This document shows, one piece after another, positions 1,756 to 61,023 of a stretch of 64,000 nt of DNA. The DNA is from Siphonodentalium dalli. Taxonomy: Eukaryota; Mollusca; Scaphopoda; Gadilida; Siphonodentaliidae. The position numbers and the translations under genes were made by a program. Within the stretch, counting starts at the first letter, position 1. Each line of letters opens with the position of its first letter. The notes under the pieces are model-generated. The model saw only the letters and a program-made list of their open reading frames with translations, was not told the origin of the DNA and did not search any database. Location of the stretch: positions 4,836,001 to 4,900,000 of the forward strand of contig CP136062.1 in NCBI GenBank assembly GCA_032622095.1, written 5' to 3'.

Positions 1756-1774
1756 GCAACCACCCCGGTGGGTG

Positions 1775-1808
1775 TTTATACCTAAGGCGTGTGTGAATGA
1801 TGACGTCA
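1775..1808 (-). promoter_or_regulatory. Outward-facing CRE plus TATA module, left TIR
   Basis: Read on the minus strand, TGACGTCA (1801-1808) is followed 20 bp later by TATAAA (complement of 1775-1780). TATA-to-start spacing of about 30 bp would place a start near 1750, just outside the element. TGACGTCA is the full CREB/ATF consensus. Promoter function is inferred from motif content and spacing only. Confidence 0.4.
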
Positions 1809-1883
1809 TATAATTTTTCGATATATATTTCTATACGATGGAACGATTTTCAGGAAAGAGTGTATGCTATTTAGCGAAATTGA

Positions 1884-1889
1884 CACGTG
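1884..1889. promoter_or_regulatory. CACGTG E-box, left TIR
   Basis: Palindromic canonical E-box (bHLH-ZIP type site) one base before the ETS-arm hairpin. It is conserved at the equivalent position in the right TIR. A six-base word alone is weak evidence. Confidence 0.3.
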
Positions 1890-1930
1890 ACTTCCGATTA
1901 GCAACTGTTTAAAATTGCGGAATCGGAAGT
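1890..1930. other. Long hairpin with ETS-like arms, left TIR
   Basis: ACTTCCGATT and AATCGGAAGT form perfect 10-bp arms, extended inward by GCAA/TTGC after one and two unpaired bases, around an AAACTG/TTTAAA-rich loop. The arms contain CGGAAGT, the ETS-family core. The structure could act as a cruciform, a transposase-binding subterminal repeat or a pair of divergent ETS sites; the sequence does not decide between these. Confidence 0.7.
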
Positions 1931-1957
1931 GGAACAACGAGATGAAATGCCACGGCC

Positions 1958-1978
1958 CATGACGTAATTTACGTCATG
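1958..1978. other. ACGTCA palindrome at TIR/satellite border, left
   Basis: Perfect odd palindrome: CATGACGTAA on one side of a central T and its reverse complement on the other. It presents two divergent TGACGTAA half-sites of the bZIP type about 20 bp before the first satellite unit. Confidence 0.75.
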
Positions 1979-1999
1979 TTGGCTTCGTATGTGCAACAT

Positions 2000-2858
2000 T
2001 AACCCTTTCACGATGGGAGACGCGCTAGTGCAGCATTAATGTTTTTTTATTACGGGAGCTGTGCTGGTGCAGCATTAACCATTTCATGACCTCTGCTGGA
2101 GCAGCATTAACTCTCTCATGACGGGAGCTGCGCTGGTGCAGCATTAATTATTTGATGACGGGAGCTGCGTTGGTGCAGCATTAACTCTTTCATGACGGGA
2201 GCTGAGCTGGTGTAGCATTAATTATTTCATGACGGGAGCGGCGTTGGTGCAGCATTAATTATTTGATAATGGGAGCTGCATTGGTGCAGCATTAACTCTT
2301 TCATGAAGGGAGCTGCGTTTGTGCAGCATTAAATATTTCACGACGGGAGCTGCGTTGGTGCAGCATTAACTATTTCATGATGGGAGCTGCGCTGGTGCAC
2401 CACTAATTATTTCAGGACGGGGCTGCGTTGGTGCAGCATTAATTATTTCATGATGGGAGCTGCATTGGTGCAGCATTGACTCTTTCGTGACGGGAGCTGC
2501 GCTGGTGCAGTATTAATACATTTCATGACGGGAGCTGCGTTGGTGCAGCATTAACTCTTTCATGACGGGAGCTGCGTTGGTGCAGCATTAATTATTTGAT
2601 GATGGGAGCTACGTTGTTGCATCATTAACTCTCTCATGACGGGAGCTGCGCTGGTGCAGCATTAATTATTTGATCACGGGAGCTGCGTTGGTGCAGCATT
2701 AACTCTTTCATGACCAGAGCTGAGCTGGTGCAGCATTAATTATTTCATGACGGGAGCTGCGTTGGTGCAGCATTAATTATTTGATTTTGGGAGCTGCGTT
2801 GGTGCAGCATTAACTCTTTCATGACGGGAGCTGCGTTAGTGCAGCATTAATTATTTGA
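2000..2858 (-). repeat. 37-bp satellite, inverted left segment (~23 units)
   Basis: Tandem monomers of about 37 bp in the opposite orientation to the rest of the array, recognisable on the plus strand as GGGAGCTGCGTTGGTGCAGC followed by ATTAA and a CATGA or GATGA word. The first units (about 2000-2110) are the most divergent and match the outermost units of the right arm. Later units are typical. Length divided by 37 gives about 23 copies. Confidence 0.95.
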
Positions 2859-2861
2859 TCA
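2856..2861. other. Satellite orientation switch at TGATCA
   Basis: Left of this point units run in minus orientation, right of it in plus. The junction is the palindrome TGATCA within TTTGATCATGAAA. The units on each side are not mirror images beyond that, so an inversion breakpoint fits better than a simple fold-back. Confidence 0.85.
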
Positions 2862-5800
2862 TGAAAGAGTCAATGATGCACCAATGCAGCTGCCATCATG
2901 AAATAATTAATGCTGCACCAACGCAGCCCCGTCCTGAAATAATTAATGCTGCACCAGCGCAGCCCCCGTCATGAAAGGTTTAATGCTGCACCAGCACTGA
3001 TCCCATCATAAAATAGTTAATGCTGCACCAACGCAGCTCCCGTCATGAAATAATTAATGCTGCACCAGCGCAGCTCCCGTCATGAAAGGGTTAATACTGC
3101 ACCAACACAGCTCCCGTCATAAAAAGGTTAATGCTGCACTAGCACAGCTCCCATCATGAAAGAATTAATGCTGCACCAGCAGAGCTCCCGTCATGAAATA
3201 ATTATTGATGCACTAACGCATCATGATAGAGTAATGCTGCACCAACGCAGCTCCCATAAACAAATAATTAATGCTGCACTAACGCAGCTCCCGTCATGAA
3301 ATAGTTAATGCTGCACCAACACAGCTCCCATTATCAAATAATTAACGCTGCACCAACGCAGCTCCCGTCATGAAATGTATTAATACTGCACCAGCGCAGC
3401 TCCCGTCATGAAAGAGTTATTGCTGTATAAATGCAGCTCCCATCATTAAATAATTAATGCTGCACCAACGCAGCTCCCGTCATGAAATAATTAATGCTGC
3501 ACCAGCGCAGCTCCCGACATGAAAGGGTTAACACTGCACCAACACAGCTCCCGTCATAAAAAGGTTAATGCTGCACCAGCACAGCTCCCATCATGAAAGA
3601 ATTAATGCTGCCCCAACGCAGCTCCCGTCATGAAAGAATTAATGCTGCCCCAACAGAGCTCCCGTCACCAAAGGGTTAAAGCTGCACCAACGCAGCTCCC
3701 GTCATGAAATGGTTAATGTTGCACCAACGCAGCTCCCATCATCAAATAACTAATGCTGCACCAACGTAGTACCCGTCATGAAATAATTAATTCTGCACCA
3801 ACGCAGCTCCCATCATCAAATAATTAATGCTGCACCAACGCAGCTCCCGTCATGAAATAATTATTGATGCACCAGCGCAGCTCCCGTCATGATAGAGTAA
3901 TGCTGCACCAACGCAGCTCCCATAAACAAATAATTAATGCTGCACTAACGCAGCTCCCGTCATGAAATAGTTAATGCTGCACCAACACAGCTCCCATTAT
4001 CAAATAATTAACGCTGCACCAACGCAGCTCCCGTCATGAAATGTATTAATACTGCACTGGCGCAGCTCCCATCATGAAAGAGTTATTGCTGCATAAATGC
4101 AGCTCCCATCATTAAATAATTAATGCTGCACCAACGCAGCTCCCGTCATGAAATAATTAATGCTGCACCAGCGCAGCTCCCGTCATGAGATAATTAATGC
4201 TGCATCAGCGCAGCTCCCGTCATGAAATTATTAATGATGCACCAACGCAGCTCCCGTCATGAAATAATTAATGCTGCACCAGCTCAGCTCCCATCAGCAA
4301 ATAATTAATGCTACACCAACGCAGCTCCCGTCGTGAAATAGTTAATGCTGCACCAACGCAGCTCCCATCATTAAATAATTAATGCTGCACCAAGGCAGCT
4401 CCCGTCATGAAAGAGTTAATGCTGCATCAACGCAGCTCCCATCATCAAATAATTAATGCTGCACCACGCAGCTCCCGTCATTAAAGAGTTAATTCTGCAT
4501 CAACGCAGCTCCCATCATCAAATAATTAATGCTGTACCAACGCAACTCCCGTCATGAATGGGTAATGCTACACCAACGCAGCTCCCGTCATGAAATAATT
4601 AATGCTGCACCAGCGCAGCTCCCGCCATGAAATAGTTAATGCTGCACCAACGCGGGCTCCCATCATCAAATAATTAATGCTGCACCAACGCAGCTCCCTT
4701 CATGAAATAATTAATGCTGCACCAGCGCAGCTCCCGTCATGAAAGAGTTAATGCTGCACCAACGCAGCTCCCATCTTCAAATATTTAATGCTGCACCAAC
4801 GCAGCTCCCTTCATGAAATGTATTAATACTGCACCAGCGCAGCTCCCGTCATGAAAGAGTTATTGCTGCATAAATGCAGCTCCCATCATTAAATAATTAA
4901 TGCTGCACCAACGTAGCTCCCGTCATGAATGGGTTAATGCTGCACCAACGCGGGCTCCCATCATCAAATAATTAATGCTGCACCAACGCAGCTCCCTTCA
5001 TGAAATAATTAATGCTGCACCAGCGCAGCTCCCGTCATGAAAGAGTTAATGCTGCACCAACGCAGCTCCCATCATCAAATATGTAATGCTGCACCAACGC
5101 AGCTCCCGTCATGAAATGTATTAATACTGCACCAGCGCAGCTCCCGTCATGAAAGAGTTATTGCTGCATAAATGCAGCTCCCATCATTAAATAATTAATG
5201 CTGCACCAACGCAGCTCCCGTCATGAAATAATTAATGCTGCATCAGCGCAGCTCCCGTCATGAAATTATTAATGATGCACCAAAGCAGCTCCCGTCATGA
5301 AATAATTAATGCTGCACCAGCTCAGCTCCCGTCATGAAAGAGTTAACGCTGCACCAACGCAGCTCCCATCATTAAATAATTAATGCTGCACCAAGGCAGC
5401 TCCCGTCATGAAAGAGTTAATGCTGCATCAACGCAGCTCCCATCATCAAATAATTAATGCTGCACCACGCAGCTCCCGTCATTAAAGAGTTAATTCTGCA
5501 TCAACGCAGCTCCCATCATCAAATAATTAATGCTGTACCAACGCAACTCCCGTCATGAATGGGTTAATGCTACACCAACGCAGCTCCCATCAACAAATAA
5601 TTAATGCTGCACCAACGCAGCTCCCGTCATGAATGGGTTAATGCTACACCAACGCAGCTCCCGTCATGAAATAATTAATGCTGCACCAACGCAGCTCCCG
5701 CCATGAAATAGTTAATGCTGCACCAACGCGGGCTCCCATCATCAAATAATTAATGCTGCACCAACGCAGCTCCCTTCATGAAATAATTAATGATGCACCA

Positions 5801-8800
5801 GCGCAGCTCCCGTCATGAAAGAGTTAATGCTGCACCAAGGCAGCTCCCATCATCAAATATTTAATGCTGCACCAACGCAGCTCCCTTCATGAAATAACTA
5901 ATGCTGCAACAACGCAACTGTCGTCATGGTCCCACCATGGAAGGGTTAATGCTGGACCAGCAGAGCTACCCGTCATGAAAGGGTTAATGCTGCACCAGCA
6001 CAGCACAGATCCCATCATAAAATAGTTAATGCTGCACCAACGCAGCTCCCGTCATGAAATAATTACTGCTGCACCAGCGCAGCTCCCGTCATGAATGAGT
6101 TAATGCTGCACCAACGCAGCTCCCGTCATTAAATAATTAATGCTGCACCAGCACAGATCCCGTCATGAAATAATTAATGCTGCATCAGCGCAGATTCCGT
6201 CCTGAAATGGTTAATACTCCACCAACACAGCTCCCGTCATAAAAAAGGTTAATGCTGCACCAGCACAGCTCCCATCATGAAATAATTAATGCTGCCCAAC
6301 GCAGCTCCAGTCATGAAATACTTGATGTTGCCCCAATGCAGCTCGCATCATCAAATAACTAATGCTGCACCAACGCTGCTCCCGTCATAAAATAATTAAT
6401 GCTGCACCAGCGCAGCTCCCATCAGCAAATAATTAATGCTGCACTAACGAAGCTCCCGTCATGAAAGAGTTAATGCTGCACCAACGCAGCTCCCATAATC
6501 AAATAATTAATGATGCTCTAACGCAGCTCCCGTCACGAAAGAGTTAATGCTGCACCAACGCAGCTCCCATAATCAAATAATTATTTCTGCACTAACGCAG
6601 CTCCCGTCATGAAATAACTAATGCTGCACCAGCGCAGCTCCCATCAGCAAATAATTAATGCTGCATTAACGCAGCTCCCGTCATGAAAGGGTTAATGCTG
6701 CACCAACGCAGCTCCCATAATCAAATAATTAATGCTGCACTAACGCAGCTCCCGTCATGAAAGGGCTAATGCTGCACCAACGCAGCTCCCATAATCAAAT
6801 AATTAATGCTGCACCAACGCAACTTCCGTCATGAAATGTATTAATACTGCACCAGCGCAGCTCCCATCATGAAAGAGTCAATGCTGCACCAACGCAGATC
6901 CCGTCATAAAAAGGTTAATGCTGCACCAGCACAGCTCCCATCATGAAATTATTAATGCTGCTCAACGCAGCTCCCGTCATGAAAGAATTAATGCTGCCCC
7001 AACGCAGCTCCCGTCATGAATGGGTAAATGCTACACCAACGCAGCTCCCATCATCAAATAACTAATGCTGCACCAACGCAGCTCCCGTCATGAAATAATT
7101 AATGCTACACAAGCGCAGCTCCCATCAGCAAATAATTAATGCTACACCAACGCAGCTCCCGTCATGAAATAGTTAATGCTGCACCAACGCAGCTCCCATA
7201 ATCAAATAATTAATGCTGCACTAACGCAGCGCCCGTCATGAAAGAGTTAATGCTGCACCAACGCAGCTCCCATCATCAAATAATTAACTCTGCACCAACG
7301 CAACTCCCGTCATGAAATGTATTAATACTGCACCAGCGCAGCTTCCGTCATGAAAGAGTTAATACTGCACCAACGCAGTTCCCTTCATGAAATAGTTAAT
7401 GCTGCACCAACGCAGCTCCCGTCATCAAATAATTAATGCTGCACCAACGCAGCTCCCGCCATGAAATAGTTAATGATGCACCAACGCGGGCTCCCATCAT
7501 CAAATAATTAATGCTGCACCAACGCAGCTCCATTCATGAAATAATTAATGCTGCACCAGCGCAGCTCCCGTCACGAAAGAGTTAATGCTGCACCAACGCA
7601 GCTCCCATCATCAAATATTTAATGCTTCACCAACGCAGCTCCCTTCATGAAATAACTAATGCTGCAACAACACAACTGTCGTCATGGTCCCACCATGGAA
7701 GGGTTAATGCTGGACCAGCAGAGCTACCCGTCATGAAAGGGTTAATGCTGCACAGCACAGATCCCATCATAAAATAGACAGTGCTGCACCAACGCAGCTC
7801 CCGTCATGAAATAATTAATGCTGCACCAGCGCAGCTCCCGTCATGAATGGGTTAATGCTACACCAACGCAGCTCCCGTCATGAAATAATTAATGCTGCAC
7901 CAGCGCAGCTACCGCCATGAAATAGTTAATGCTGCACCAACGCGGGCTCCCATCATGAAATAACTAATGCTGCACCAACGCAGCTCCCTTCATGAAATAA
8001 CTAATGCTGCAACAACGCAACTGTCGTCATGGTCCCACCATGGAAGGGTTAATGCTGGACCAGCAGAGCTACCCGTCATGAAAGGGTTAATGGTGCACCA
8101 GCACAGATCCCATCATAAAATAGTTAATGCTGCACCAACGCAGCTCCCGTCATTAAATAATTAATGCTGCACCAGCACAGATCCCGTCATGATAAAATTA
8201 ATGCTGCATCAGCGCAGATCCCGTCATGAAATGGTTAATGCTCCACCAACACAGCTCCCGTCATAAAAAGGTTAATGCTACACCAGCACAGCTCCCATCA
8301 TGAAATAATTAATGCTGCCCAACGCAGCTCCTGTCATGAAAGACTTGATGTTGCCCCAATGCAGCTCCCATCATCAAATAACTAATGCTGCACCAACGCA
8401 GCTCCCGTCATGAAATAATTAATGCTGCACCAGCGCAGCTCCCATCAGCAAATAATTAATGCTGCACTAACGCAGCTCCCGCCATGAAAGAGTTAATGCT
8501 GCACCAACGCAGCTCCCATAATCAAATAATTAATGCTGCACTAACGCAGCTCCCGTCATGAAAGAGTTAATGCTGCACCAACGCAGCTCCCATAATCAAA
8601 TAATTATTTATGAACTAACGCAGCTCCCGTCATGAAAGAGTTTATGCTGCACCAACGCAGCTCCCATCATCAAATAATTAACGCTGCACCAACGCAACTC
8701 CCGTCATGAAATGTATTAATACTGCACCAGCGCAGCTCAGTCATGAAAGAGTCAATGCTGCACCAACGCAGATCCCGTCATAAAAAGGTTAATGCTGCAC

Positions 8801-11800
8801 CAGCACAGCTCCCATCATGAAAGAATTAATGCTGCCCAACGCAGCTCCCGTCATGAAATAATTAATGCTGCCCCAACGCAGCTCCCGTCATGAATGAGTA
8901 AATGCTACACCAACGCAGCTCCCATCATCAAATAACTAATGCTGCACCAACGCAGCTCCCGTCATGAAATAATTAATGCGGCACCAACGCAGCTCCCGTC
9001 ATGAAATAATTAATGCTGCACAAGCGCAGCTCCCATCAGCAAATAATTAATGCTGCACCAACGCAGCTCCCGTCATGAAATAGTTAATGCTGCACCAACG
9101 CAGCTCCCATAATCAAATAATTATTTCTGCACTAACGCAGCTGCCGTCATGAAAGAGTTTATGCTGCACCAACGCAGCTCCCTTCATCAAATAATTAATG
9201 CTGCAATAACGCAGCTCCCGCCATGAAAGAGTTAAAGCTGCACCAACGAAGCTACCATAATCAAATAATTAATGCTGCACTAACGCAGCTCCCGTCACGA
9301 AAGAGTTAATGCTGCACCAACGCAGATCCCATAATCAAATAATTATTTCTGCACTAACGCAGCTCCCGTCATGAAAGAGTTTATGCTGCACCAACGCAGC
9401 TCCCATCATCAAATAATTAACGCTGCACCAACGCAACTCCCGTCATGAAATGTATTAATACTGCACCAGCGCAGCTCCCGTCATGAAAGAGTCAATGATG
9501 CACCAACGCAGCTCCCGTCATAAAAAGGTTAATGCTGCACCAGCACAGCTCCCATCATGAAATAATTAATGCTGCCCAACGCAGCTCCCGTCATGAAAGA
9601 ATTAATGCTGCCCCAACGCAGCTCCCGTCATGAATGGGTAAATGCTACACCAACGCAGCTCCCATCATCAAATAACTAATGCTGCACCAACGCAGCTCCC
9701 GTCATTAAATAATTAATGCTGCACAAGCGCAGCTCCCATCAGCAAATAATTAATGCTGCACCAACGCAGCTTCCGTCGTGAAATAGTTAATGCTGCACCA
9801 ACGCAGCTCGCATAATCAAATAATTAATGCTGCACTAACGCAGCTCCCGTCATGAAAGAGTTAATGCTGCACCAACGCAGCTCCCATCATCAAATAATTA
9901 ACGCTGCACCAACGTAACTCCCGTCATGAAATGTATTAATACTGCACCAGCGCAGCTCCCGTCATGAAAGAGCAATGCTGGAACAATGCAGCTCCCTTCA
10001 TGAAATAATTAATGCTGCACCAACGCAGCCCCGTCCTGAAATAATTAATGGTGCACCAGCGCAGCTCCCGTCATGAACTAGTTAATGCTGCACCAACGCA
10101 GCTCCCGTCATGAAATATTTAATGCTGCACCAACGCAGCTCCCGTCATGAAAGAGTTAATGCTGCACCAACGCAGCTCCCATTATCAAATAATTAACGCT
10201 GCACCAACGAAGCTGTCGTCATGAAGTGTATTAATACTGCACCAGCGCAGCTCCTGTCATGAAAGAGTTATTGCTGCATAAATGCAGCTCACATCATGAA
10301 ATAATTAATGATGCACCAACGCAGCTCCCGTCATGAAATAATTAATGCTGCACCAGCTCAGCTCCCGTCATGAAATAATTAATGATGCACCAACGCAGCT
10401 CCCGTCATGAAAAAATTAATGCTGCACCAGCTCAGCTCCCGTCATGAAAGAGTTAACGCTGCAACAACGCAGCTCCCATCATCAAATAATTAATGCTGCA
10501 TCAGCGCAGCTCCCGTCATGAAATTATTAATGATGCACCAGCTCAGCTCCCGTCATGAAAGAGTTAACGCTGCACCAACGCAGCTCCCATCATCAAATAA
10601 TTAATGATGCACCAAGGCAGCTCCCGTCATGAAAGAGTTAATGCTGCATCAACGCAGCTCCCATCATCAAATAATTAATGCTGCACCACGCAGCTCCCGT
10701 CATGAAAGAGTTAATTCTGCATCAACGCAGCTCCCATATTCAAATAATTAATGCTGCACCAACGCAGCTCCCGTCATGAATGGGTTAATGCTACACCACC
10801 GCAGCTCCCATCAGCAAATAATTAATGCTGCACCAACGCAGCTCCCGTCATGAATGGGTAAATGCTACACCAACGCAGCTCCCGTCATGAAATAATTAAT
10901 GCTGCACCAGCGCAACTCCCGCCATGAAATAGTTAATGCTGCACCAACGCGGGCTCCCATCATCAAATAATTAATGCTGCACCAACGCAGCTCCCTTCAT
11001 GAAATAATTAATGCTGCACTAACGCAGCTCCCGTCATGAAAGAGTTAATGCTGCACAAACGCAGCTCCCGTCATGAAATAATTAATGCTGCACCAGCGCA
11101 ACTCCCGCCATGAAATAGTTAATGCTGCACCAACGCGGGCTCCCATCATCAAATAATTAATGCTGCACCAACGCAGCTCCCTTCATGAAATAATTAATGC
11201 TGCACTTACGCAACTCCCGCCATGAAATAATTAATGCTGCACCAACGCAGCTCCCATCATCAAATAATTAACGCTGCATCAACGCAACTCCCGTCATGAA
11301 ATGTATTAATACTGCACCAGCGCAGCTCCCGTCATGAACGAGTCAATGCTGCAACAATACAGCTCCCTTCATGAAATAATTCATGCTGCACCACGGCAGC
11401 CCCGTCCTGAAATAATTAATGATGCACCAGCGCAGCTCCCGTCATGAAATAGTTAATACTGCACCAACGCAGTTCGCTTCATGAAATAGTTAATGCTGCA
11501 CCAACCCAGCTCCCGTCATCAAATAATTAATGCTGCACCAGCACAGCTCCCGTCACCAAAGGGTTAATGCTGCACCAACGCAGCTCCCGTCACGAAAGGG
11601 TTAATGCTGCACCAACGCAGCTCCCATCATCAAATAACTAATGTTGCACCAACGCAGCTCACGTCATGAAATAATTAATGCTGCACCAGCGCAGAACGCA
11701 GCTCCCATCATCAAATATTTAATGCTGCACCAACGCAGCTCCCTTCATGAAATAACTAATGCAGCAACAACGCAACTGTCGTCATGGTCCCACCATGGAA

Positions 11801-14800
11801 GGGTTAATGCTGGACCAGCAGAGCTACCCGTCATGAAAGGGTTAATGCTGCACCAGCACAGATCCCATCATAAAATAGTTAATGCTGCACCAACGCAGCT
11901 CCCGTCATGAAATAATTAATGCTGCACCAGCGCAGCTCCCGTCATGAATGGGTTTAATGCTACACCAACGCAGCTCCCGTCATGAAATAATTAATGCTGC
12001 ACCAGCGCAGCTCCCGCCATGAAATAGTTAATGCTGCACCAACGCGGGCTCCCATCATCAAATAATTAATGCTGCACCAACGCAGCTCCCTTCATGAAAT
12101 AACTAATGCTGCAACAAATGCTACACCAACGCAGCTCCCGTCATGAAATAATTAATGCTGCACCAGCGCAACTCCCGCCATGAAATAGTTAATGCTGCAC
12201 GAAGCGGGCTGCCATCATCAAATAATTAATGCTGCACCAACGCAGCTCCTTTCATGAAATAATTAATGCTGCACTAACGCAGCTCCCGTCATGAAAGAGT
12301 TAATGCTGCACCAACGCAGCTCCCATCATCAAATAATTAACGCTGCACCAACGCAACTCCCGTCATGAAATGTATTAGTACTGCACCAGCGCAGCTCCCG
12401 TCATGAAAGAGTCAATGCTGCAACAATGCAGCTCCCTTCATGAAATAATTAATGCTGCACCACGGCAGCCCCGTCCTGAAATAATTAATGATGCACCAGC
12501 ACAGCTCCCGTCATGAAATAGTTGATACTGCACCAACGCAGTTCCCTTCTTGAAATAGTTAATGCTGCACCAACCCAGCTCCCGTCATCAAATAATTAAT
12601 GCTGCACCAGCACAGCTCCCGTCACCAAAGGGTTAATGCTGCACCAACGCAGCTCCCGTCATGAAAGGGTTAATGCTGCACCAACGCAGCTCCCATCATC
12701 AAATAACTAATGTTGCACCAACGCAGCTCCCGTCATGAAATAATTAATGCTGCACCAGCGCAGAACGCAGCTCCCATCATCAAATATTTAATGCTGCACC
12801 AACGGAGCTCCCTTCATGAAATAACTAATGCTGCAACAACGCAACTGTCGTCATGGTCCCACCATGGAAGGGTTAATGCTGGACCAGCAGAGCTACCCGT
12901 CATGAAAGGGTTAATGGTGCACCAGCACAGATCCCATCATAAAATAGTTAAAGCTGCACCAACGCAGCTCCCGTCATGAAATAATTAATGCTGCACCAGC
13001 GCAGCTCCCGTCATGAATGAGTTAATGCTGCACCAACGCAGCTCCCGTCATTAAATAATTAATGCTGCACCAGCACAAATCCCGTCATGAAAGAATTAAT
13101 GCTGCATCAGCGCAGATCCCGTCATGAAATGGTTAATACTCCACCAACACAGCTCCCGTCATAAAAAGGTTAATGCTGCTCCAGCACAGCTCCCATCATG
13201 AAATAATTAATGCTGCCCAACGCAGCTCCAGTCATGAAAGACTTGATGTTGCCCCAATGCAGCTCCCATCATCAAATAACTAATGCTGCACCATCGCAGC
13301 TCCCGTCATGAAATAATTAATGCTGCACCAGCGCAGCTCCCATCAGCAAATAATTAATGTTGCACTAACGCAGCTCCCGCCATGAAAGAGTTAATGCTGC
13401 ACCAACGCAGCTCCCATAATCAAATAATTAATGCTGCACTAACGCTGCTCCCGTCATGAAAGAGTTAATGCTGCACCAACGCAGCTCCCATAATCAAATA
13501 ATTATTTCTGCACTAACGCAGCTCCCGTCATGAAATAGTTTATGCTGCACCAACGCAGCTCCCATCATCAAATAATTAACGCTGCACCAACGCAACTGCC
13601 GTCATGAAATGTATTAATACTGCACCAGCGCAGCTCCCGTCATGAAAGAGTCAATGTGGCACCAACGCAGCTCCCGTCATAAAAAGGTTAATGCTGCACC
13701 AGCACAGCTCCCATCATGAAAGAATTAATGCTGCCCAACGCAGCTCCCGTCATGAAAGAATTAATGCTGCCCCAACGCAGCTCCCGTCATGAATGGGTAA
13801 ATGCTGCACCAACGCAGCTCCCATCATCAAATACATAATGCTGCACCAACGCAGCTCCCGTCATGAAATAATTAATGCTGCACCAACGCAGCTCCCATCA
13901 TCAAATAATTAACGCTGCACCAACACAACTGCCGTCATGAAATGTATTAATACTGCACCAGCGCAGCTCCCGTCATGAAAGAGTCAATGTGGCACCAACG
14001 CAGCTCCCGTCATAAAAAGGTTAATGCTGCACCAGCACAGCTCCCATCATGAAAGAATTAATGCTGCCCAACGCAGCTCCCATCATGAAAGAATTAATGC
14101 TGCCCAACGCAGCTCCCGTCATGAAAGAATTAATGCTGCCCCAACGCAGCTCCCGTCATGAATGGGTAAATGCTACACCAGCGCAGCTCCCATCATCAAA
14201 TAAATAATGCTGCACCAACGCAGCTCCCGTCATGAAATAATTAATGCTGCACAAGCGCAGCTGCTATCAGCAAATAATTAATGCTGCACCAACGCAGCTC
14301 CCGTCATGAAATAGTTAAAGCTGCACCAACGCAGCTCCCATAATCAAATAATTAATGCTGCACTAACGCAGCTCCCGTCATGAAAGAGTTAATGCTGCAC
14401 CAACGCAGCTCCCATCATCAAATAATTAACGCTGCACCAACGCAACTCCCGTCATGAAATGTGTTAATACTGCACCAGCGCAGTCCTGAACTAATTAATG
14501 GTGCACCAGCGCAGCTCCCGTCATGAAATAGTTAATGCTGCACCAACGCAGCTCCCGTCATGAAATATTTAATGCTGCACCAACGCAGCTCCCGTCATGA
14601 AAGAGTTAATGCTGCACCAATGCAGCTGCCATCATCAAATAATTAATGCTGCACCAACGCAGCTCCCGTCATGAAATAATTAATGCTGCCCCAGCTCAGC
14701 TCCCGTCATGAAAAAGTTAATGCTGCACCAACGCAGCTCCCGTCATCAAATAATTAATGCTGCACCAGCGCAGCTCCCGTCATGAGAGAGTTAATGCTGC

Positions 14801-17800: not shown

Positions 17801-17999
17801 ACGCAGCTCCAGTCATGAAAGACTTGATGTTGCCCCAATGCAGCTCCCATCATCAAATAACTAATGCTGCACCAACGCAGCTCCCGTCATGAAATAATTA
17901 ATGCTGCACCAGCGCAGCTCCCATCAGCAAATAATTAATGCTGCACTAACGCAGCTCCCGCCATGAAAGAGTTAATGCTGCACCAACGCAGCTCCATAA

Positions 18000-33500: not shown

Positions 33501-33864
33501 GCTGCCCCAACGCAGCTCCCGTCATGAAATGTATTAATACTGCACCAGCGCAGCTCCCATCAGCAAATAATTAATGATGCACCAACGTAGCTCCCGTCAT
33601 GAAAGAGTTAACGCTGCACCAACGCAGCTCCCGTCATCAAATAATTAATGCTGCATCAGCGCAGCTCCGGTCATGAAATTATTAATGATGCACCAACGCA
33701 GCTCCAGTCATGAAATAATTAATGCTGCACCAGCTCAGCTCCCGTCATGAAAGAGTTAACGCTGCACCAACGCAGCTCCCATCATCAAATAATTAATGAT
33801 GCACCAAGGCAGCTCCCTTCATGAAAGAGTTAATGCTGCATCAACGCAGCTCCCATCATCAAAT

Positions 33865-39900: not shown

Positions 39901-41040
39901 CGTCATGAAATAGTTAATGCTGCACCAACGCAGCTCCCATAATCAAATAATTAATGCTGCACTAACGCAGCTCCCGTCATGAAAGAGTTAATGCTGCACC
40001 AAAGCAGCTCCCATCATCAAATAATTAACGCTGCAACAACGCAACTCCCGTCATGAATTGTATTAATACTGCACCAGCGCAGTCCTGAAATAATTAATGG
40101 TGCACCAGCGCAGCTCCCGTCATGAAATAGTTAATGCTGCACCAACGCAGCTCCCGTCATGAAATATTTAATGCTGCACCAACGCAGCTCCCGTCATGAA
40201 AGAGTTAATGCTGCACCAATGCAGCTCCCATCATCAAATAATTAATGCTGCACCAACGCAGCTCCCGTCATGAAATTATTAATGCGGCACCAGCTCAGCT
40301 CCCGTCATGAAAGAGTTAATGCTGCACCAACGCAGCTCCCGTCATCAAATAATTAAGGCTGCACCAGCGCAGCTCCCGTCATGAGAGAGTTAATGCTGCA
40401 CCAACGCGTAGCTCCCATCATCAACGCAGCTCCCATTATCAAATAATTAATGCTGCACCAACGCAGCTCCCGTCATGAAATAATTAATGCTGCACCAGCG
40501 CAGCTCCCGTCATGAATGAGTTAATGCTGCACCAACGCAGCTCCCGCCATTAAATAATTAATGCTGCACCAGCACAGATCCCGTCATGAAAGAATTAATG
40601 CTGCATCAGCGCAGATCCCGTCATGAAATGGTTAATACTCCACCAACACAGCTCCCGTCATAAAAAGGTTAATGCTGCTCCAGCACAGCTCCCATCATGA
40701 AATAATTAATGCTGCCCAACGCAGCTCCAGTCATGAAAGACTTGATGTTGCCCCAATGCAGCTCCCATCATCAAATAACTAATGCTGCACCAACGCAGCT
40801 CCCGTCATGAAATAATTAATGCTGCACCAGCGCAGCTCCCATCAGCAAATAATTAATGCTGCACTAACGCAGCTCCCGCCATGACAGAGTTAATGCTGCA
40901 CCAACGCAGCTCCCATAATCAAATAATTAATGCTGCACTAACGCAGCTCCCGTCATGACAGAGTTAATGCTGCACCAACGCAGCTCCCATAATCAAATAA
41001 TTATTTCTGCACTAACGCAGCTCCCGTCATGAAAGAGTTT
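37000..41040 (+). repeat. Satellite block B, copy 2
   Basis: Adjacent partner of 32700-36950 with the same ordered private variants. Its start near 37010 is a recombinant junction: the unit TAACGCTGCACCAACGCAGC passes directly into CTCCCTTCATGAAATAAC, skipping the units that precede the marker in copy 1. Confidence 0.75.
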
Positions 41041-50000: not shown

Positions 50001-50400
50001 TCATAAAAAGGTTAATACTGCACCAGCACAGCTCCCATCATGAATGTGTTAATGCTGCACAAACGCAGCTCCCGTCATGAAATAATTAATGCTGCACCAA
50101 CGCAACCCCGTCCTGAACTAATTAATGGTGCACCAGCGCAGCTCCCATCATGAAATAGTTAATGCTGCACCAGCGCAGCTCCCGCCAAGAAATAGTTAAT
50201 GCTGCACCAACGCGGGCTCCCATCATCAAATAATTAATGCTGCAGCTCACTTCGTGAAATAATTAATGCTGCACCAGCGCAGCTCCCGTCATGAAAGAGT
50301 TAATGCTGCACCAGCGCAGCTCCCATCATCAAATATTTAATGCTGCACCAACGCAGCTCCCTTCATGAATGGGTTAATGCTACACCAACGCAGCTCCCAT
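41000..50400 (+). repeat. Satellite block A, copy 2
   Basis: Partner of about 18000-27550. Near the left edge the offset is about 22.92 kb, so the copies differ by a few hundred bp of internal deletion around 19-20 kb versus 41.6-42 kb. Near the right end both copies contain a truncated GCTGCAGCTCACTTCGTG unit (about 27430 and 50240). Confidence 0.85.
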
Positions 50401-53400
50401 CAGCAAATAATTAATGCTGCACCAACGCAGCTCCCGTCATGAATGGGTTAATGCTACACCAACGCAGCTCCCGTCATGAAATAATTAATGCTGCACCAGC
50501 GCAACTCTCGCCATGAAATAGTTAATGCTGCACCAACGCGGGCTCCCATCATCTAATAATTAATGCTGCACCAACGCAGCTCCCTTCTTGAAATAACTAA
50601 TGCTGCACCAGCGCAGCTCCCGTCATGAAAGAGTTAATGCTGCACCAACGCAGCTCCCATCATCAAATATTTAATGCTGCACCAACGCAGCTCCCTTCAT
50701 GAAATAACTAATGCTGCAACAACGCAACTGTCGTCATGGTCCCAACATGGAAGGGTTAATGCTGGACCAGCAGAGCTACCCGTCATGAAAGGGTTAATGC
50801 TGAACCAGCACAGATCCCATCATAATATAGTTAATGCTGCACCAACGCAGCTCCCGTCATGAAATAATTAATGCTATACCAGCGCAGCTCCCGTCATGAA
50901 TGAGTTAATGCTGCACCAACGCAGCTCCCGTCATTGAATAATTAATGCTGCACCAGCAAAGATTCCGTCATGAAAGAATTAATGATGCATCAGCGCAGAT
51001 CCCGTCATGAAATGGTTAATACTCCACCAACACAGCTCCCGTCATAAAAAGGTTAATGCTGCACCAGCACAGCTCCCATCATGAAATAATTAATGCTGCC
51101 CAACGCAGCTCCAGTCATGAAAGACATGAAGTTCCCCCAATGCAGCTCCCATCATCAAATAACTAATGCTGCACCAGCGCAGCTCCCATCAGCCAATAAT
51201 TAATGCTGCACTGACGCAGCTCCCGTCATGAAAGAGTTAATGCTGCACCAACGAAGCTCCCATAATCAAATAATTATTTCTGCACTAACGCAGCTCCCGT
51301 CATGAAACAGTTTATGCTGCACCAACGCAGCTCCCATCATCAAATAATTAACGCTCCACCAACGCAACTCCCGTCATGAAATGTATTAATACTGCACCAA
51401 CACAGCTCTCGTCATGAAACAATTAATCCAGCACCAGCGCAGCTCCCGTCATGAAAGGGTTAATACTGCACCAACACAGCTCCCGTCATAAAAAGGTTAA
51501 TGCTGCACCAGCACAGCTCCCATCATGAAAGAATTAATGCTGCCCAACGCAGCTCCCGTCATGCAAGAATTAATGCTGCCCCAACGCAGCTCCCGTCATA
51601 AATGGGTTAATGCTGCACAAACGCAGCTCCCGTCATGAAATTATTAATGCTGCACCAACGCAACCCCGTCCTGAACTAATTAATGGTGCACCAGCGCAGC
51701 TCCCATCATGAAATAGTTAATGCTGCACCAGCGCAGCTCCCGCCATGAAATAGTTAATGCTGCACCAACGCGGGCTCCCATCATCAAATAATTAATGCTG
51801 CAGCTCCCTTCGTGAAATAATTAATGCTGCACCACGCAGCTCCCGTCATGAAAGAGTTAATTCTGCATCAACGCAGCTCCCATCATCAAATAATTAATGC
51901 TGACCAACGCAGCTCCCGTCATGAATGGGTTAATGCTACACCAACGCAGCTCCCATCAGCAAATAATTAATGCTGCACCAACGCAGCTCCCGTCATGAAT
52001 GGGTTAATGCTACACCAACGCAGCTCCCGTCATGGAATAATTAATGCTGCACCAGCGCAGCTCCCGCCATGAAATAGTTAATGCTGCACCAACGCGGGCT
52101 CCCATCATCAAATAATTAATGCTGCAGCTCCCTTCGTGAAATAATTAATGCTGCACCAGCGCAGCTCCCGTCATGAAAGAGTTAATGCTGCAACATCGCA
52201 GCTCCCATCATCAAATATTTAATGCTGCACCAACGCAGCTCCCTTCATGAAATAACTAATTCTGCAACAACGCAACTGCCGTCATGGTCCCACCATGGAA
52301 GGGTTAATGCTGGACCAGCAAAGCTACCCGTCATGAAAGGGTTAATGCTGCACCAGCAGATATCCCATCATAAAATAATTAATGCTGCACCAACGCAGCT
52401 CCCGTCATGAATTAATTAATGCTGCACCAGCGAAGCTCCCGTCATGAATGAGTTAATGCTGCACCAACGCAGCTCCCGTCATTAAATAATGAATGCTGCA
52501 CCAGCACAGATCCCGTCATGAAATAATTAATGCTGCATCAGCGCAGCTCCCGTCATGAAATGGTTAATACTGCACCAACACAGCTCCCGTCATAAAAAGG
52601 TTAATGCTGCACCAGCACAGCTCCCGTCATGAAATGGTTAATACTGCACCAACACAGCTCCCGTCATAAAAAAAGGTTAATGCTGCACCAGCACAGCTCC
52701 CATCATGAAATAATTAATGCTGCCCAACGCAGCTCCAGTCATGAAAGAATTAATGCTGCCCCAATGCAGCTCCCATCATCAAATAACTAATGCTGCACCA
52801 ACGCAGCTTCCGTCATGAAATAATTAATGCTGCACCAACGCAGCTCCCATCATCAACTAATTAACGCTGCACCAACGCAACTCCCGTCATGAAATGTATT
52901 AATACTGCACCAGCGCAGCTCCCGTCATGAAAGAGTCAATGCTGCACCAATGCAGCTACCTTCATGAAATAATTAATGCTGCACCAACGCAGCCCCGTCC
53001 TGAAATAATTAATGGTGCACCAGCGCAGTTCCCGTCATGAAATAGTTAATACTGCACCAACGCAGCTCCCTTCATGAAATAGTTAATGCTGCACCAACGC
53101 AGCTCCCGTCATCAAATAATTAATGCTGCACCAGCACAGCTCCCGCCACCAAAGGGTTAATGCTGCACCAACGCAGCTCCCGTCATGAAAGGGTTAATGC
53201 TGCACCAACGCAGCTCCCATCATCAAATAACTAATGCAGCACCAACGCAGCTCCCGTCATGAAATAATTAATGCTGCACCAGCGCAGCTCCCATCATCAA
53301 ATAATTAATGCTGCACCAACGCAGCCCCGTCCTGAAATAATTAATGGTGCACCAGCGCAGCTCCCGTCATGAAATAGTTAATGCTGCACCAACGCAGCTC

Positions 53401-54480
53401 CCGTCATGAAAGAGTTAATGCTGCACCAATGCAGCTCCCATCATCAAATAATTAATGCTGCACCAACGCAGCTCCCGTCATGAAATAATTAATGATGTAC
53501 CAGCTCACCTCCCGTCATGTAAGAGTTAATGCTGCACCAACGCAGCTCCCGCCATCAAATAATTAATGCTGCACCAGCGCAGCTCCCGTCATGCGAGAGT
53601 TAATGCTGCACCAACGCGTAGCTCCCATCATCAACGCAGCTCCCATCATCAAATAATTGATGCGGCACAAACGCAGCTCCCGTCATGAAATAATTAATGC
53701 TGCACCAGCGCAGCTCCCATCATCAAATAATTAATGCTGCACCAACGCAGCCCCGTCCTGAAATAATTAATAGTGCACCAGCGCAGCTCCCGTCATGAAA
53801 TAGTTAATGCTGCACCAACGCAGCTCCCGTCATGAAATATTTAATGCTGCACCAACGCAGCTCCCGTCATGAAAGAGTTAATGCTGCACCAATGCAGCTC
53901 CCATCATCAAATAATTAATGCTGTACCAACGCAGCTCCCGTCATGAAATAATTAATGATGCACCAGCTCAGCTCCCATCATGAAATAGTTAATGCTGCAC
54001 CAGCGCAGCTCCCGCCAAGAAATAGTTAATGCTGCACCAACGCGGGCTCCCATCATCAAATAATTAATGCTGCAGCTCACTTCGTGAAATAATTAATGCT
54101 GCACCAGCGCAGCTCCCGTCATGAAAGAGTTAATGCTGCACCAGCGCAGCTCCCATCGTCAAATATTTAATGCTGCACCAACGCAGCTCCCTTCATGAAT
54201 GGGTTAATGCTACACCAACGCAGCTCCCATCAGCAAATAATTAATGCTGCACCAACGCAGCTCCCGTCATGAATGGGTTAATGCTACACCAACGCAGCTC
54301 CCGTCATGAAATAATTAATGCTGCACCAGCGCAACTCTCGCCATGAAATAGTTAATGCTGCACCAACGCGGGCTCCCATCATCTAATAATTAATGCTGCA
54401 CCAACGCAGCTCCCTTCATGAAATAATTAATGCTGCACCAGCGCAGCTCCCGTCATGAAAGACTTAATGCTGCACCAACG

Positions 54481-56780
54481 CAGCTCCCATCATCAAATAT
54501 TTAATGCTGCACCAACGCAGCTCCCTTCATGAAATAACTAATGCTGCAACAACGCAACTGTCGTCATGGTACCAACATGGAAGGGTTAATGCTGGACCAG
54601 CAGAGCTACCCGTCATGAAAGGGTTAATGCTGAACCAGCACAGATCCCATCATAATATAGTTAATGCTGCACCAACGCAGCTCCCGTCATGAAATAATTA
54701 ATGCTGTACCAGCGCAGCTCCCGTCATGAATGAGTTAATGCTGCACCAACGCAGCTCCCGTCATTGAATAATTAATGCTGCACCAGCAAAGATTCCGTCA
54801 TGAAAGAATTAATGATGCATCAGCGCAGATCCCGTCATGAAATGGTTAATACTCCACCAACACAGCTCCCGTCATAAAAAGGTTAATGCTGCACCAGCAC
54901 AGCTCCCATCATGAAATAATTAATGCTGCCCAACGCAGCTCCAGTCATGAAAGACTTGAAGTTCCCCCAATGCAGCTCCCATCATCAAATAACTAATGCT
55001 GCACCAGCGCAGCTCCCATCAGCAAATAATTAATGCTGCACTGACGCAGCTCCCGTCATGAAAGAGTTAATGCTGCACCAACGAAGCTCCCATAATCAAA
55101 TAATTATTTCTGCACTAACGCAGCTCCCGTCATGAAACAGTTTATGCTGCACCAACGCAGCTCCCATCATCAAATAATTAACGCTCCACCAACGCAACTC
55201 CCGTCATGAAATGTATTAATACTGCACCAGCGCAGCTCCCGTCATGAAAGAGTCAATGCTGCACCAACGCAGCTCCCGTCATGAAATAATTAATGCTGCA
55301 CCAGCGCAGCTCCCGTCATGAATGAGTTAATGCTGCACCAACGCAGCTCCCGTCGTTAAATAATTAATGCTGCACCAACACAGCTCTCGTCATGAAACAA
55401 TTAATCCAGCACCAGCGCAGCTCCCGTCATGAAAGGGTTAATACTGCACCAACACAGCTCCCGTCATAAAAAGGTTAATGCTGCACCAGCACAGCTCCCA
55501 TCATGAAAGAATTAATGCTGCCCAACGCAGCTCCCGTCATGCAAGAATTAATGCTGCCCCAACGCAGCTCCCGTCATAAATGGGTTAATGCTGCACAAAC
55601 GCAGCTCCCGTCATGAAATAATTAATGCTGCACCAACGCAACCCCGTCCTGAACTAATTAATGGTGCACCAGCGCAGCTCCCATCATGAAATAGTTAATG
55701 CTGCACCAGCGCAGCTCCCGCCATGAAATAGTTAATGCTGCACCAACGCGGGCTCCCATCATCAAATAATTAATGCTGCAGCTCCCTTCGTGAAATAATT
55801 AATGCTGCACCACGCAGCTCCCGTCATGAAAGAGTTAATTCTGCATCAACGCAGCTCCCATCATCAAATAATTAATGCTGACCAACGCAGCTCCCGTCAT
55901 GAATGGGTTAATGCTACACCAACGCAGCTCCCATCAGCAAATAATTAATGCTGCACCAACGCAGCTCCCGTCATGAATGGGTTAATGCTACACCAACGCA
56001 GCTCCCGTCATGGAATAATTAATGCTGCACCAGCGCAGCTCCCGCCATGAAATAGTTAATGCTGCACCAACGCGGGCTCCCATCATCAAATAATTAATGC
56101 TGCAGCTCCCTTCGTGAAATAATTAATGCTGCACCAGCGCAGCTCCCGTCATGAAAGAGATAATGCTGCAACATCGCAGCTCCCATCATCAAATATTTAA
56201 TGCTGCACCAACGCAGCTCCCTTCATGAAATAACTAATTCTGCAACAACGCAACTGCCGTCATGGTCCCACCATGGAAGGGTTAATGCTGGACCAGCAAA
56301 GCTACCCGTCATGAAAGGGTTAATGCTGCACCAGCAGATATCCCATCAAAAAATAATTAATGCTGCACCAACGCAGCTCCCGTCATGAATTAATTAATGC
56401 TGCACCAGCGAAGCTCCCGTCATGAATGAGTTAATGCTGCACCAACGCAGCTCCCGTCATTAAATAATGAATGCTGCACCAGCACAGATCCCGTCATGAA
56501 AGAATTAATGCTGCATCAGCGCAGCTCCCGTCATGAAATGGTTAATACTGCACCAACACAGCTCCCGTCATAAAAAAGGTTAATGCTGCACCAGCACAGC
56601 TCCCATCATGAAATAATTAATGCTGCCCAACGCAGCTCCAGTCATGAAAGAATTAATGCTGCCCCAACGCAGCTCCCATCATCAAATAACTAATGCTGCA
56701 CCAACGCAGCTTCCGTCATGAAATAATTAATGCTGCACCAACGCAGCTCCCATCATCAAATAATTAACGCTGCACCAACG
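54481..56780 (+). repeat. 2300-bp tandem satellite block, copy 1
   Basis: Every stretch I compared is identical to the sequence 2300 bp downstream, including rare variants such as CATGGTACCAACATGG (54566), GAAGTTCCCCCAATG (54958) and GCAACATCGCAG. It is an ancient relative of about 50650-52600, which has the same variants with more differences. Confidence 0.9.
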
Positions 56781-59080
56781 CAGCTCCCATCATCAAATAT
56801 TTAATGCTGCACCAACGCAGCTCCCTTCATGAAATAACTAATGCTGCAACAACGCAACTGTCGTCATGGTACCAACATGGAAGGGTTAATGCTGGACCAG
56901 CAGAGCTACCCGTCATGAAAGGGTTAATGCTGAACCAGCACAGATCCCATCATAATATAGTTAATGCTGCACCAACGCAGCTCCCGTCATGAAATAATTA
57001 ATGCTGTACCAGCGCAGCTCCCGTCATGAATGAGTTAATGCTGCACCAACGCAGCTCCCGTCATTGAATAATTAATGCTGCACCAGCAAAGATTCCGTCA
57101 TGAAAGAATTAATGATGCATCAGCGCAGATCCCGTCATGAAATGGTTAATACTCCACCAACACAGCTCCCGTCATAAAAAGGTTAATGCTGCACCAGCAC
57201 AGCTCCCATCATGAAATAATTAATGCTGCCCAACGCAGCTCCAGTCATGAAAGACTTGAAGTTCCCCCAATGCAGCTCCCATCATCAAATAACTAATGCT
57301 GCACCAGCGCAGCTCCCATCAGCAAATAATTAATGCTGCACTGACGCAGCTCCCGTCATGAAAGAGTTAATGCTGCACCAACGAAGCTCCCATAATCAAA
57401 TAATTATTTCTGCACTAACGCAGCTCCCGTCATGAAACAGTTTATGCTGCACCAACGCAGCTCCCATCATCAAATAATTAACGCTCCACCAACGCAACTC
57501 CCGTCATGAAATGTATTAATACTGCACCAGCGCAGCTCCCGTCATGAAAGAGTCAATGCTGCACCAACGCAGCTCCCGTCATGAAATAATTAATGCTGCA
57601 CCAGCGCAGCTCCCGTCATGAATGAGTTAATGCTGCACCAACGCAGCTCCCGTCGTTAAATAATTAATGCTGCACCAACACAGCTCTCGTCATGAAACAA
57701 TTAATCCAGCACCAGCGCAGCTCCCGTCATGAAAGGGTTAATACTGCACCAACACAGCTCCCGTCATAAAAAGGTTAATGCTGCACCAGCACAGCTCCCA
57801 TCATGAAAGAATTAATGCTGCCCAACGCAGCTCCCGTCATGCAAGAATTAATGCTGCCCCAACGCAGCTCCCGTCATAAATGGGTTAATGCTGCACAAAC
57901 GCAGCTCCCGTCATGAAATAATTAATGCTGCACCAACGCAACCCCGTCCTGAACTAATTAATGGTGCACCAGCGCAGCTCCCATCATGAAATAGTTAATG
58001 CTGCACCAGCGCAGCTCCCGCCATGAAATAGTTAATGCTGCACCAACGCGGGCTCCCATCATCAAATAATTAATGCTGCAGCTCCCTTCGTGAAATAATT
58101 AATGCTGCACCACGCAGCTCCCGTCATGAAAGAGTTAATTCTGCATCAACGCAGCTCCCATCATCAAATAATTAATGCTGACCAACGCAGCTCCCGTCAT
58201 GAATGGGTTAATGCTACACCAACGCAGCTCCCATCAGCAAATAATTAATGCTGCACCAACGCAGCTCCCGTCATGAATGGGTTAATGCTACACCAACGCA
58301 GCTCCCGTCATGGAATAATTAATGCTGCACCAGCGCAGCTCCCGCCATGAAATAGTTAATGCTGCACCAACGCGGGCTCCCATCATCAAATAATTAATGC
58401 TGCAGCTCCCTTCGTGAAATAATTAATGCTGCACCAGCGCAGCTCCCGTCATGAAAGAGATAATGCTGCAACATCGCAGCTCCCATCATCAAATATTTAA
58501 TGCTGCACCAACGCAGCTCCCTTCATGAAATAACTAATTCTGCAACAACGCAACTGCCGTCATGGTCCCACCATGGAAGGGTTAATGCTGGACCAGCAAA
58601 GCTACCCGTCATGAAAGGGTTAATGCTGCACCAGCAGATATCCCATCAAAAAATAATTAATGCTGCACCAACGCAGCTCCCGTCATGAATTAATTAATGC
58701 TGCACCAGCGAAGCTCCCGTCATGAATGAGTTAATGCTGCACCAACGCAGCTCCCGTCATTAAATAATGAATGCTGCACCAGCACAGATCCCGTCATGAA
58801 AGAATTAATGCTGCATCAGCGCAGCTCCCGTCATGAAATGGTTAATACTGCACCAACACAGCTCCCGTCATAAAAAAGGTTAATGCTGCACCAGCACAGC
58901 TCCCATCATGAAATAATTAATGCTGCCCAACGCAGCTCCAGTCATGAAAGAATTAATGCTGCCCCAACGCAGCTCCCATCATCAAATAACTAATGCTGCA
59001 CCAACGCAGCTTCCGTCATGAAATAATTAATGCTGCACCAACGCAGCTCCCATCATCAAATAATTAACGCTGCACCAACG
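56781..59080 (+). repeat. 2300-bp tandem satellite block, copy 2
   Basis: Direct copy of 54481-56780. The copies part company just after the shared word TAACGCTGCACCAACGCA, which gives a clean junction at about 56780 and 59080. Identity this high implies very recent duplication, conversion or an assembly duplicate. Confidence 0.9.
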
Positions 59081-60682
59081 CAACTCCCGTCATGAAATGT
59101 ATTAATACTGCACCAGCGCAGCTCCCGTCATGAAAGAGTCAATGCTGCACCAATGCAGCTACCTTCATGAAATAATTAATGCTGCACCAACGCAGCCCGT
59201 CCTGAAATAATTAATGGTGCACCAGCGCAGTTCCCGTCATGAAATAGTTAATACTGCACCAACGCAGCTCCCTTCATGAAATAGTTAATGCTGCACCAAC
59301 GCAGCTCCCGTCATCAAATAATTAATGCTGCACCAGCACAGCTCCCGTCACCAAAGGGTTAATGCTGCACCAACGCAGCTCCCGTCATGAAAGGGTTAAT
59401 GCTGCACCAACGCAGCTCCCATCATCAAATAACTAATGCTGCACCAACGCAGCTCCCGTCATGAAATAATTAATGCTGCACCAGCGCAGCTCCCATCATC
59501 AAATAATTAATGCTGCACCAACGCAGCCCCGTCCTGAAATAATTAATGGTGCACCAGCGCAGCTCCCGTCATGAAATAGTTAATGCTGCACCAACGCAGC
59601 TCCCGTCATGAAAGAGTTAATGCTGCACCAATGCAGCTCCCATCATCAAATAATTAATGCTGCACCAACGCAGCTCCCGTCATGAAATAATTAATGCTGT
59701 ACCAGCTAACCTCCCGTCATGAAAGAGTTAATGCTGCACCAACGCAGCTTCCGCCATCAAATAATTAATGCTGCACCAGCGCAGCTCCCGTCATGCGAGA
59801 GTTAATGCTGCACCAACGCGTAGCTCCCATCATCAACGCAGCTCCCATCATCAAATAATTGATGCTGCACAAACGCAGCTCCCGTCATGAAATAATTAAT
59901 GCTGCACCAGCGCAGCTCCCATCATCAAATAATTAATGCTGCACCAACGCAGCCCCGTCCTGAAATAATTAATGGTGCACCAGCGCAGCTCCCGTCATGA
60001 AATAGTTAATGCTGCACCAACGCAGCTCCCGTCATGAAATATTTAATGCTGCACCAACGCAGCTCCCGTCATGAAAGAGTTAATGCTGCACCAATGCAGC
60101 TCCCATCATCAAATAATTAATGCTGCACCAACGCAGCTCCCGTCATGAAATAATTAATGATGCACCAGCTCAGCTCCCGTCATGAACGAGTTAATGCTGC
60201 ACCAACGCAGCTACCGTCATCAAATAATTAATGCTGCACCAGCGCAGCTCCCGTCACGAGAGAGTTAATGCTGCACCAACGCGTAGCTCCCATCATCAAC
60301 GCAGCTCCCATCATCAAATAATTAATGCTGCACCAACGCAGCTCCCGTCATAAAATAATTAATGCTGCACCAGCGCAGCTCCCGTCACGAAGGAGTTAAT
60401 GCTGCACCAACGCAGTTCCCATCATCAAATATTTAATGCTGCACCAACGCAGCTCCCTTCATGAAATAACTAATCCTACACCAACTCAACTACCTTCATG
60501 GAACAGTAAATGCTGCTCCAGCACAGCTCCCCGTCATGAAAGGGTTAATGCTGCACAGCACAGCACAGCTCTCGTCGTGAAATGGTTAATGCTACACCAG
60601 CACAGCTCCCGTAATAAAACATTAATGCTGCACTAGCGCGTCTACCATCGTGAAAGGGTTAATGTTGCACCTACGAAGCCAA

Positions 60683-60703
60683 CATGACGTAAATGACGTC
60701 ATG
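60683..60703. other. ACGTCA palindrome at TIR/satellite border, right
   Basis: Mirror copy of 1958-1978 with one substitution that breaks the perfect dyad but converts one half-site into a full TGACGTCA. Either the left copy lost a CRE or the right gained one. Confidence 0.7.
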
Positions 60704-60730
60704 AGCCGTGGCATTTCATCTCGTTGTTCC

Positions 60731-60771
60731 ACTTCCGATTCCGCAATTTTAAACAGTTGCTAATCGGAAGT
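60731..60771. other. Long hairpin with ETS-like arms, right TIR
   Basis: Mirror copy of 1890-1930, with both 10-bp arms and the inner GCAA/TTGC pairing intact. No difference from the left copy is seen in this 41-bp stretch. Confidence 0.7.
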
Positions 60772-60777
60772 CACGTG
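60772..60777. promoter_or_regulatory. CACGTG E-box, right TIR
   Basis: Mirror copy of the left-TIR E-box, immediately beside the hairpin at 60731-60771. Unproven as a functional site. Confidence 0.3.
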
Positions 60778-60852
60778 TCAATTTCGCTAAATAGCATACA
60801 CTCTTTCCTGAAAATCGTTCCATCGTATAGAAATATATATAGAAAAATTATA

Positions 60853-60886
60853 TGACGTCATCATTCACACACGCCTTAGGTATAAA
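60853..60886 (+). promoter_or_regulatory. Outward-facing CRE plus TATA module, right TIR
   Basis: TGACGTCA at 60853-60860 and TATAAA at 60881-60886 mirror the left module. A start about 30 bp beyond the TATA would fall near 60911, a few bases outside the element, so transcripts would run rightward toward the membrane-protein exon at 62186. Both boxes are intact in both TIR copies. Function is inferred. Confidence 0.4.
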
Positions 60887-61023
60887 CACCCACCGGGGTG
60901 GTTTCTATAATTCTATCAACAAATAGCGCCAAGGGTAATTGCAAATTGAATGTTTAAGTTGAAAACCTGTCTTTTCTGGAGCACATTTCATTGCATGGAA
61001 AATCAAACTAATGAAACATTTAG

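Follow-up and report, generated by a model that had tools for sequence, protein, structure and literature searches.

A 59-kb satellite-filled block in a scaphopod genome is probably a fusion of two convergent Helentron-like insertions

Helentron-type elements whose central repeats have grown into satellites are known; the double-headed fusion proposed here appears to be new. Among the Helentron-associated interspersed elements of the Pacific oyster (Cg_HINE), the longest array mentioned in the accessible part of the source has 29.3 monomers, and two clusters averaging 146 and 138 bp are described as departing from the typical length (PMC7492417). The central tandem repeats of the Helentron-type DINE-TR1 of Drosophila have been amplified into satellite-like arrays, according to the accessible portions of two reports (PMC9957191, PMC9659126). 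As far as the available text of the oyster study goes, the element family described here shares with Cg_HINE its two modules, the central satellite-like array, the subterminal inverted repeats, the 3′ palindrome, the dispersed distribution and the lack of a TSD (PMC7492417). It differs from it in its 37-bp unit, in the length of its largest array (about 1,560 units) and in its target, which is TWA^TA and mostly A^T here and TT for the oyster HINEs. The orientation of the Cg_HINE array is constant relative to the modules, and normal copies of the present element are alike in this respect, whereas the locus studied here breaks the rule (PMC7492417). DINE-TR1, by the same partial accounts, has a unit of about 150 bp and forms satellite arrays, not one locus between two 5′ ends (PMC9957191, PMC9659126). 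The Tetris foldback element of Drosophila virilis looks similar, with inverted ends and tandem repeats from which a satellite develops; there the satellite reportedly arises from the TIRs of one element (Dias et al, 2014), whereas the inverted pair at the present locus appears to be secondary. A limited search of the open literature, covering titles and the beginnings of abstracts, returned no report of such an array bounded by two 5′ ends.

The window analysed is a stretch of 64,000 nucleotides from Siphonodentalium dalli (GCA_032622095.1, contig CP136062.1, positions 4,836,001 to 4,900,000 of the forward strand), and genome searches covered nine sequences totalling 2.23 Gb. The features of the window are given below, with E1 and E2 denoting the left and right parts of the block and L039 an element-free locus; the names of the parts follow the reading favoured further on.

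1..1753, no strand assigned: left flank, 97.3% identical to the element-free C2:2931196-2932947
1751..1753, forward strand: TAA closing the 5′ target flank of E1 (target in L039, TATAA^TATTTG)
1754..2041, forward strand: 5′ module of E1 (left), from TAGCAACCACCCCGGTGGGTG... to the first 37-bp unit
2042..2858, forward strand: leftover 37-bp array of E1, about 22 units, forward
2850..2870, no strand assigned: putative fusion point, ATTATTTGA/TCATGAAAGAGT, at which the orientation of the array reverses
2859..60619, reverse strand: 37-bp array of E2, about 1,560 units, reverse, with internal block duplications
54469..59082, reverse strand: pair of 2.3-kb blocks within the E2 array, head to tail
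60620..60907, reverse strand: 5′ module of E2 (right), the same end as in E1, inverted
60908..60910, reverse strand: TAA (minus strand TTA) closing the 5′ target flank of E2 (target in L039, GAATTA^TATTAAC)
60908..62678, no strand assigned: right flank, 96.4% identical to L039, the element-free locus that also matches the left flank

The inverted ends of the block read TAG... from 1754 and ...CTA to 60907 and are 98% identical over 284 aligned bp. Between them lies the 37-bp repeat alone, without a single N. The preliminary description had recognized inverted ends of about 98% identity bounding an array with no other sequence in between, but it placed the ends at 1756 and 60905 and overlooked that the array changes orientation at 2858/2859, where the GC skew switches too. 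On the forward side, an arm of about 820 bp contains 18 exact cores of the unit, the last at 2841; the reverse arm extends over 57.8 kb and contains 958, the first at 2908. The block thus consists of two mutually inverted arrays that differ greatly in length. Cutting the E2 array yielded 1,535 units, 1,218 of them exactly 37 bp long, with a mean identity of 90% to their own consensus. The unit had 741 matches with up to three mismatches and none in 100 shuffles, which excludes chance. The open frames inside the block are three stop-to-stop frames of 90 aa (minimum 80 aa), and an Rfam scan gave no match. Outside the element, the right flank carries at 61024-61055 a lone piece resembling the 37-bp unit (GTTAACCCTTCATGACGGGAGCTGCGCTGGTG), also present in L039 and in three further element-free loci (L133-L135); it is possibly a trace of the unit's origin or a remnant of an older element. 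A stop-to-stop frame of 96 aa at 62162-62452 has, by eye, a hydrophobic N-terminal stretch resembling a membrane anchor, and a Pfam scan of 88 aa of it returned no match. Another tandem array, with a 32-bp unit and 93% matches, occupies 63337-64000 and continues beyond the window.

The ends belong to a dispersed family. The 5′ tip (an exact 25-mer) occurs 123 times in the genome and the junction between tip and array at 129 places with up to three mismatches, which bears out the initial view of a multi-copy mobile element. That the number of internal 37-bp units varies was also anticipated, and the array in the window is about 20 times the usual size. Comparisons among junctions rest on 100 listed of the 129. 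A normal copy is asymmetric: the 5′ end is followed by the 37-bp array and then by a distinct 3′ end, which has a hairpin and, subterminally, an inverted repeat. When we read inward from 20 array-bearing tips, this conserved 3′ end (...GTGTGGTTGCTCCACTACGTGTCACGTATGATTCATAT, slightly variable between copies) was read directly in nine. This 3′ end has 2,012 places in the genome (up to three mismatches) against 129 for the array-bearing 5′ ends, so that other 5′ types probably share it. We compared 63 of the 100 listed 5′ ends, of which 61 lie on C1-C6 and the other two, whose 3′ ends were read, on C7 and C8, with the exact 3′-end matches listed and four 3′ ends added by hand from loci read. A 3′ end on the same strand was found within 200 kb for 44 of the 63 and within 5.9 kb for 39 (median, 2.8 kb). 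The 19 array-bearing 5′ ends without a listed 3′ end include the two in the window, that of a homologous array at C2:8479170 and 16 others; because exact 3′ ends alone were listed, an absent 3′ end may be a mutated one. In the window itself, blastn-short detected no trace of the 3′ end.

The 3′ hairpin, TACGT-GTC-ACGTA with a predicted 5-bp stem, is present as sequence in 8 of 8 copies printed with both ends. Subterminally, the 3′ GTGGTTGCT pairs with the 5′ AGCAACCAC as inverted 9-mers; the former is present in all eight of these copies and the latter in seven, the remaining one having AGAAACCAC. Two joints read at C1:273.0 Mb (...CATAT/TAGCAACC...) show copies placed directly head to tail, with no base between them. 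The 37-bp unit itself has at least 6,772 places genome-wide with up to three mismatches, a lower bound, as its listed perfect matches miss the window although the window holds some. The tip also occurs without the 37-bp repeat, at 13 of 38 first-read loci (L009-L011, L016, L019-L021, L023, L024, L028, L029, L032 and L035; the 38 include the window's ends again). Eight of these tip-only loci were compared and have the first 111-114 bp in common; L009 and L011 diverge after about 32 bp. The tip-only loci are a sister subfamily, and a pair of them at C2:1898213/1903162 is arranged head to tail with a spacing of 4.95 kb.

The mode of insertion could be read from two normal copies: their flanks, once joined, match stretches elsewhere that run on without a break at the joint (16 rows for one copy, 40 for the other). 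In the two empty places aligned for each copy the joint was exact with no duplicated bases (TTTTA^TATTT and CATAA^TAGTG), i.e. neither of the two copies tested has a TSD. All four resolved targets are TWA^TA, that is, A^T within an AT-rich site; in five copies (L002, L003, L005, L006 and L017) TAT precedes the element, i.e. T^T. The lack of a TSD, the asymmetric ends with shared inverted 9-mers, the 3′ hairpin and the head-to-tail copies together fit a non-autonomous, Helentron-like element of the rolling-circle type (HINE/DINE). The genome contains 151 matches to the Helitron-like Rep domain PF14214; some lie within open frames 1,600-2,800 aa long and several have equal scores at different sites, which suggests recently active rolling-circle elements. 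We did not find an autonomous partner with the ends TAGCAACCACC / CACTACGTGTCACGTATGATTCATAT; the one long-frame Helitron locus read, over 9 kb, has neither end.

These data bear directly on the class originally assigned to the block. Inverted ends with TAA on both sides are what the window's anatomy, taken alone, offers in favour of one cut-and-paste, PIF/Harbinger-like TIR element with a 3-bp TAA duplication, 286-bp TIRs and an expanded satellite. Before the 3′ ends and the empty sites were read, the TAA had the look of a 3-bp TSD. Normal copies, however, terminate in a different 3′ end and lack a TSD in both cases tested, and of the 100 junctions listed (129 in all), only those in the window form a convergent pair less than 355 kb apart. 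The flanks of the block are moreover not adjacent in the element-free locus: the preliminary description had expected a target duplication and an empty site with one TA, whereas in L039, the sole locus found with both flanks, the targets lie 723 bp apart. Nor is the TAA that borders each end a TSD. We therefore regard a single TIR element as hardly credible.

L039 (C2:2931196-2935400) contains both window flanks in order and no element, with identities to the window of 97.3% over 1,763 bp on the left and 96.4% over 1,773 bp on the right. The 5′ flank of E1 matches it right up to 1754, and the E2 target GAATTA^TATTAAC is uninterrupted in L039 and likewise in L133-L135. Given the 723 bp between the targets, the two ends of the block mark two insertion sites. 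In L133-L135, which are dispersed, the 723-bp stretch is present, within the sequence read, from 12 bp past the left target and runs into the right flank, at about 89% identity over 914 aligned columns. The stretch (about 720 bp) is contiguous with the right flank in all four element-free loci examined; the right flank has further, weaker matches, such as C7:11134919. We conclude from the four loci that the stretch is ancestral and that the window has lost it.

Two 5′ ends without a 3′ end, separate targets and a sequence at the flip that was found once lead us to conclude, with a probability of about 0.7, that the block consists of two convergent Helentron-like insertions fused inside their arrays by deletion. 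Two copies would have inserted, facing each other, at TWA^TA sites separated by 723 bp, presumably with a Helitron/Helentron enzyme acting in trans. A later deletion would have removed the inner parts of the arrays, both 3′ ends and the intervening 723 bp, so that the remaining 22 units of the forward E1 array came to adjoin the reverse E2 array. Tandem block duplications would have enlarged the latter to about 1,560 units, after insertion rather than before it. With its own 3′ end absent, the fused locus is probably immobile as a unit. The short E1 array is 81-92% identical to the arrays of other copies (control mean 87%, maximum 90%) and is thus not clearly recognizable by its sequence as the 5′-proximal array of a normal copy.

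We asked how the two 5′ ends relate to each other and to 19 unlinked copies. The right end, cut to 265 bp, is nearer to 14 of the 19 than to the left end, which would be unexpected had both ends been copied from one template. The comparison is one-sided: the left end is nearer to only 8 of the 19 than to the right end, with three ties. Eight of the 19 are farther from the left end than the right end is, as might be expected of an inverted 5′-5′ dimer that arose by aberrant rolling-circle replication and, in one insertion, replaced 723 bp of the target. Such a dimer would also place two 5′ ends at preferred targets without two rare nearby insertions. By rough calculation, a convergent pair within about 720 bp is expected 0.0013 times with 129 random insertions and 0.33 times with 2,012 places; with so low an expectation, two separate insertions may need a local hotspot or coupled insertion. 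A dimer shows no sign of having spread, however, given that no second convergent pair lies within 355 kb among the 100 junctions listed and that the fusion 21-mer was found once, and we consider it improbable. It is very improbable that the double-headed form stems from one rolling-circle event in which a missing end signal let the repeat run to 58 kb; if true, this would be a route that turns a rolling-circle element directly into a satellite.

The 21-mer across the flip has a single occurrence in the genome in a search allowing up to one mismatch. Likeness between the arms on either side of it is 86% and does not exceed that of unrelated array pieces, which rules out a mirror-image fold-back artefact at this position. 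Long satellites are a classic place for assembler jumps, and E1, the 723 bp, E2 and both 3′ ends could all still be present in the chromosome if the assembler had jumped from one array to the other. In line with such a jump, the homologous array at C2:8479170 meets a 100-N gap after 50.5 kb, and the 3′ end of E2 is out of view both there and in the window. The window, on the other hand, contains no N, its joint is not a fold-back, and both flanks are ordered correctly and close together in L039. We thus give an assembly artefact a small but appreciable chance.

If two insertions were fused, most of the present length was contributed by E2, whose array of 57.8 kb compares with a median 5′-to-3′ distance of 2.8 kb in other copies. 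Within it, 62% of the 60-mers recur, and the 2.3-kb blocks starting at 54469 and 56769 are identical over 2,314 bp (100%); this pair is the newest visible growth step. The homologous stretch, C2:8475700-8529646, comprises the right flank and then, over 50.5 kb up to the gap, the same 5′ end with its array. Its right flank has two mismatches to the window in 1,504 bp and is 98.6% identical over the next 2,195 bp, and it may represent the other haplotype or a duplication. Probes from the homologue are 99.3-100% identical to the window array, with best matches shifted from collinearity by 0, +2.3, +2.1, -3.2, -4.9, -9.3 and -9.4 kb. The first shift equals the size of the 2.3-kb duplication, which suggests that the duplication is absent from the array at C2:8479170. 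As best matches within a repeat are ambiguous, we limit the claim to length changes of several kb: the array was probably already very long before the window and its homologue split and has been changing since. Elsewhere in C2:1.4-8.5 Mb, the pairs L018/L030, L019/L029, L020/L028 and L026/L033 have flanks 99.2-99.9% identical, some of them inverted, and appear to be recent large duplications or haplotypes left unpurged in the assembly. L039 is a further relative of the window flanks, at 96-97% identity.

The longest confirmed among the other arrays, about 9.7 kb at C4:21.33 Mb, was satellite in two of two sampled probes. Three candidates for long arrays were discarded. At C4:142.34 Mb the nearest listed 3′ end is 22.1 kb away and satellite was found in none of four probes; at C4:247.42 Mb (12.6 kb) it was found in one of three, beside the 3′ end, and at C5:31.99 Mb (8.9 kb) in neither of two. 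Five further 5′ ends without a listed 3′ end gave no satellite in eight probes placed about 4.5 to 21 kb inward. A 36-kb sister element, suggested by two facing tips at C2:34434385/34470704, was likewise rejected: the copy at C2:34434385 is 2.2 kb long and closes with a 3′ end of its own, and the 3′ end of the copy at C2:34470704 lies 2.8 kb inward.

At this locus the inner repeat of a transposon has reached the size of a satellite at a single addressable site, and the same genome supplies many short relatives for comparison. Two rolling-circle insertions can together pass for a flawless giant TIR element, matching TSD included, and naming such structures requires that element-free paralogues be consulted first.
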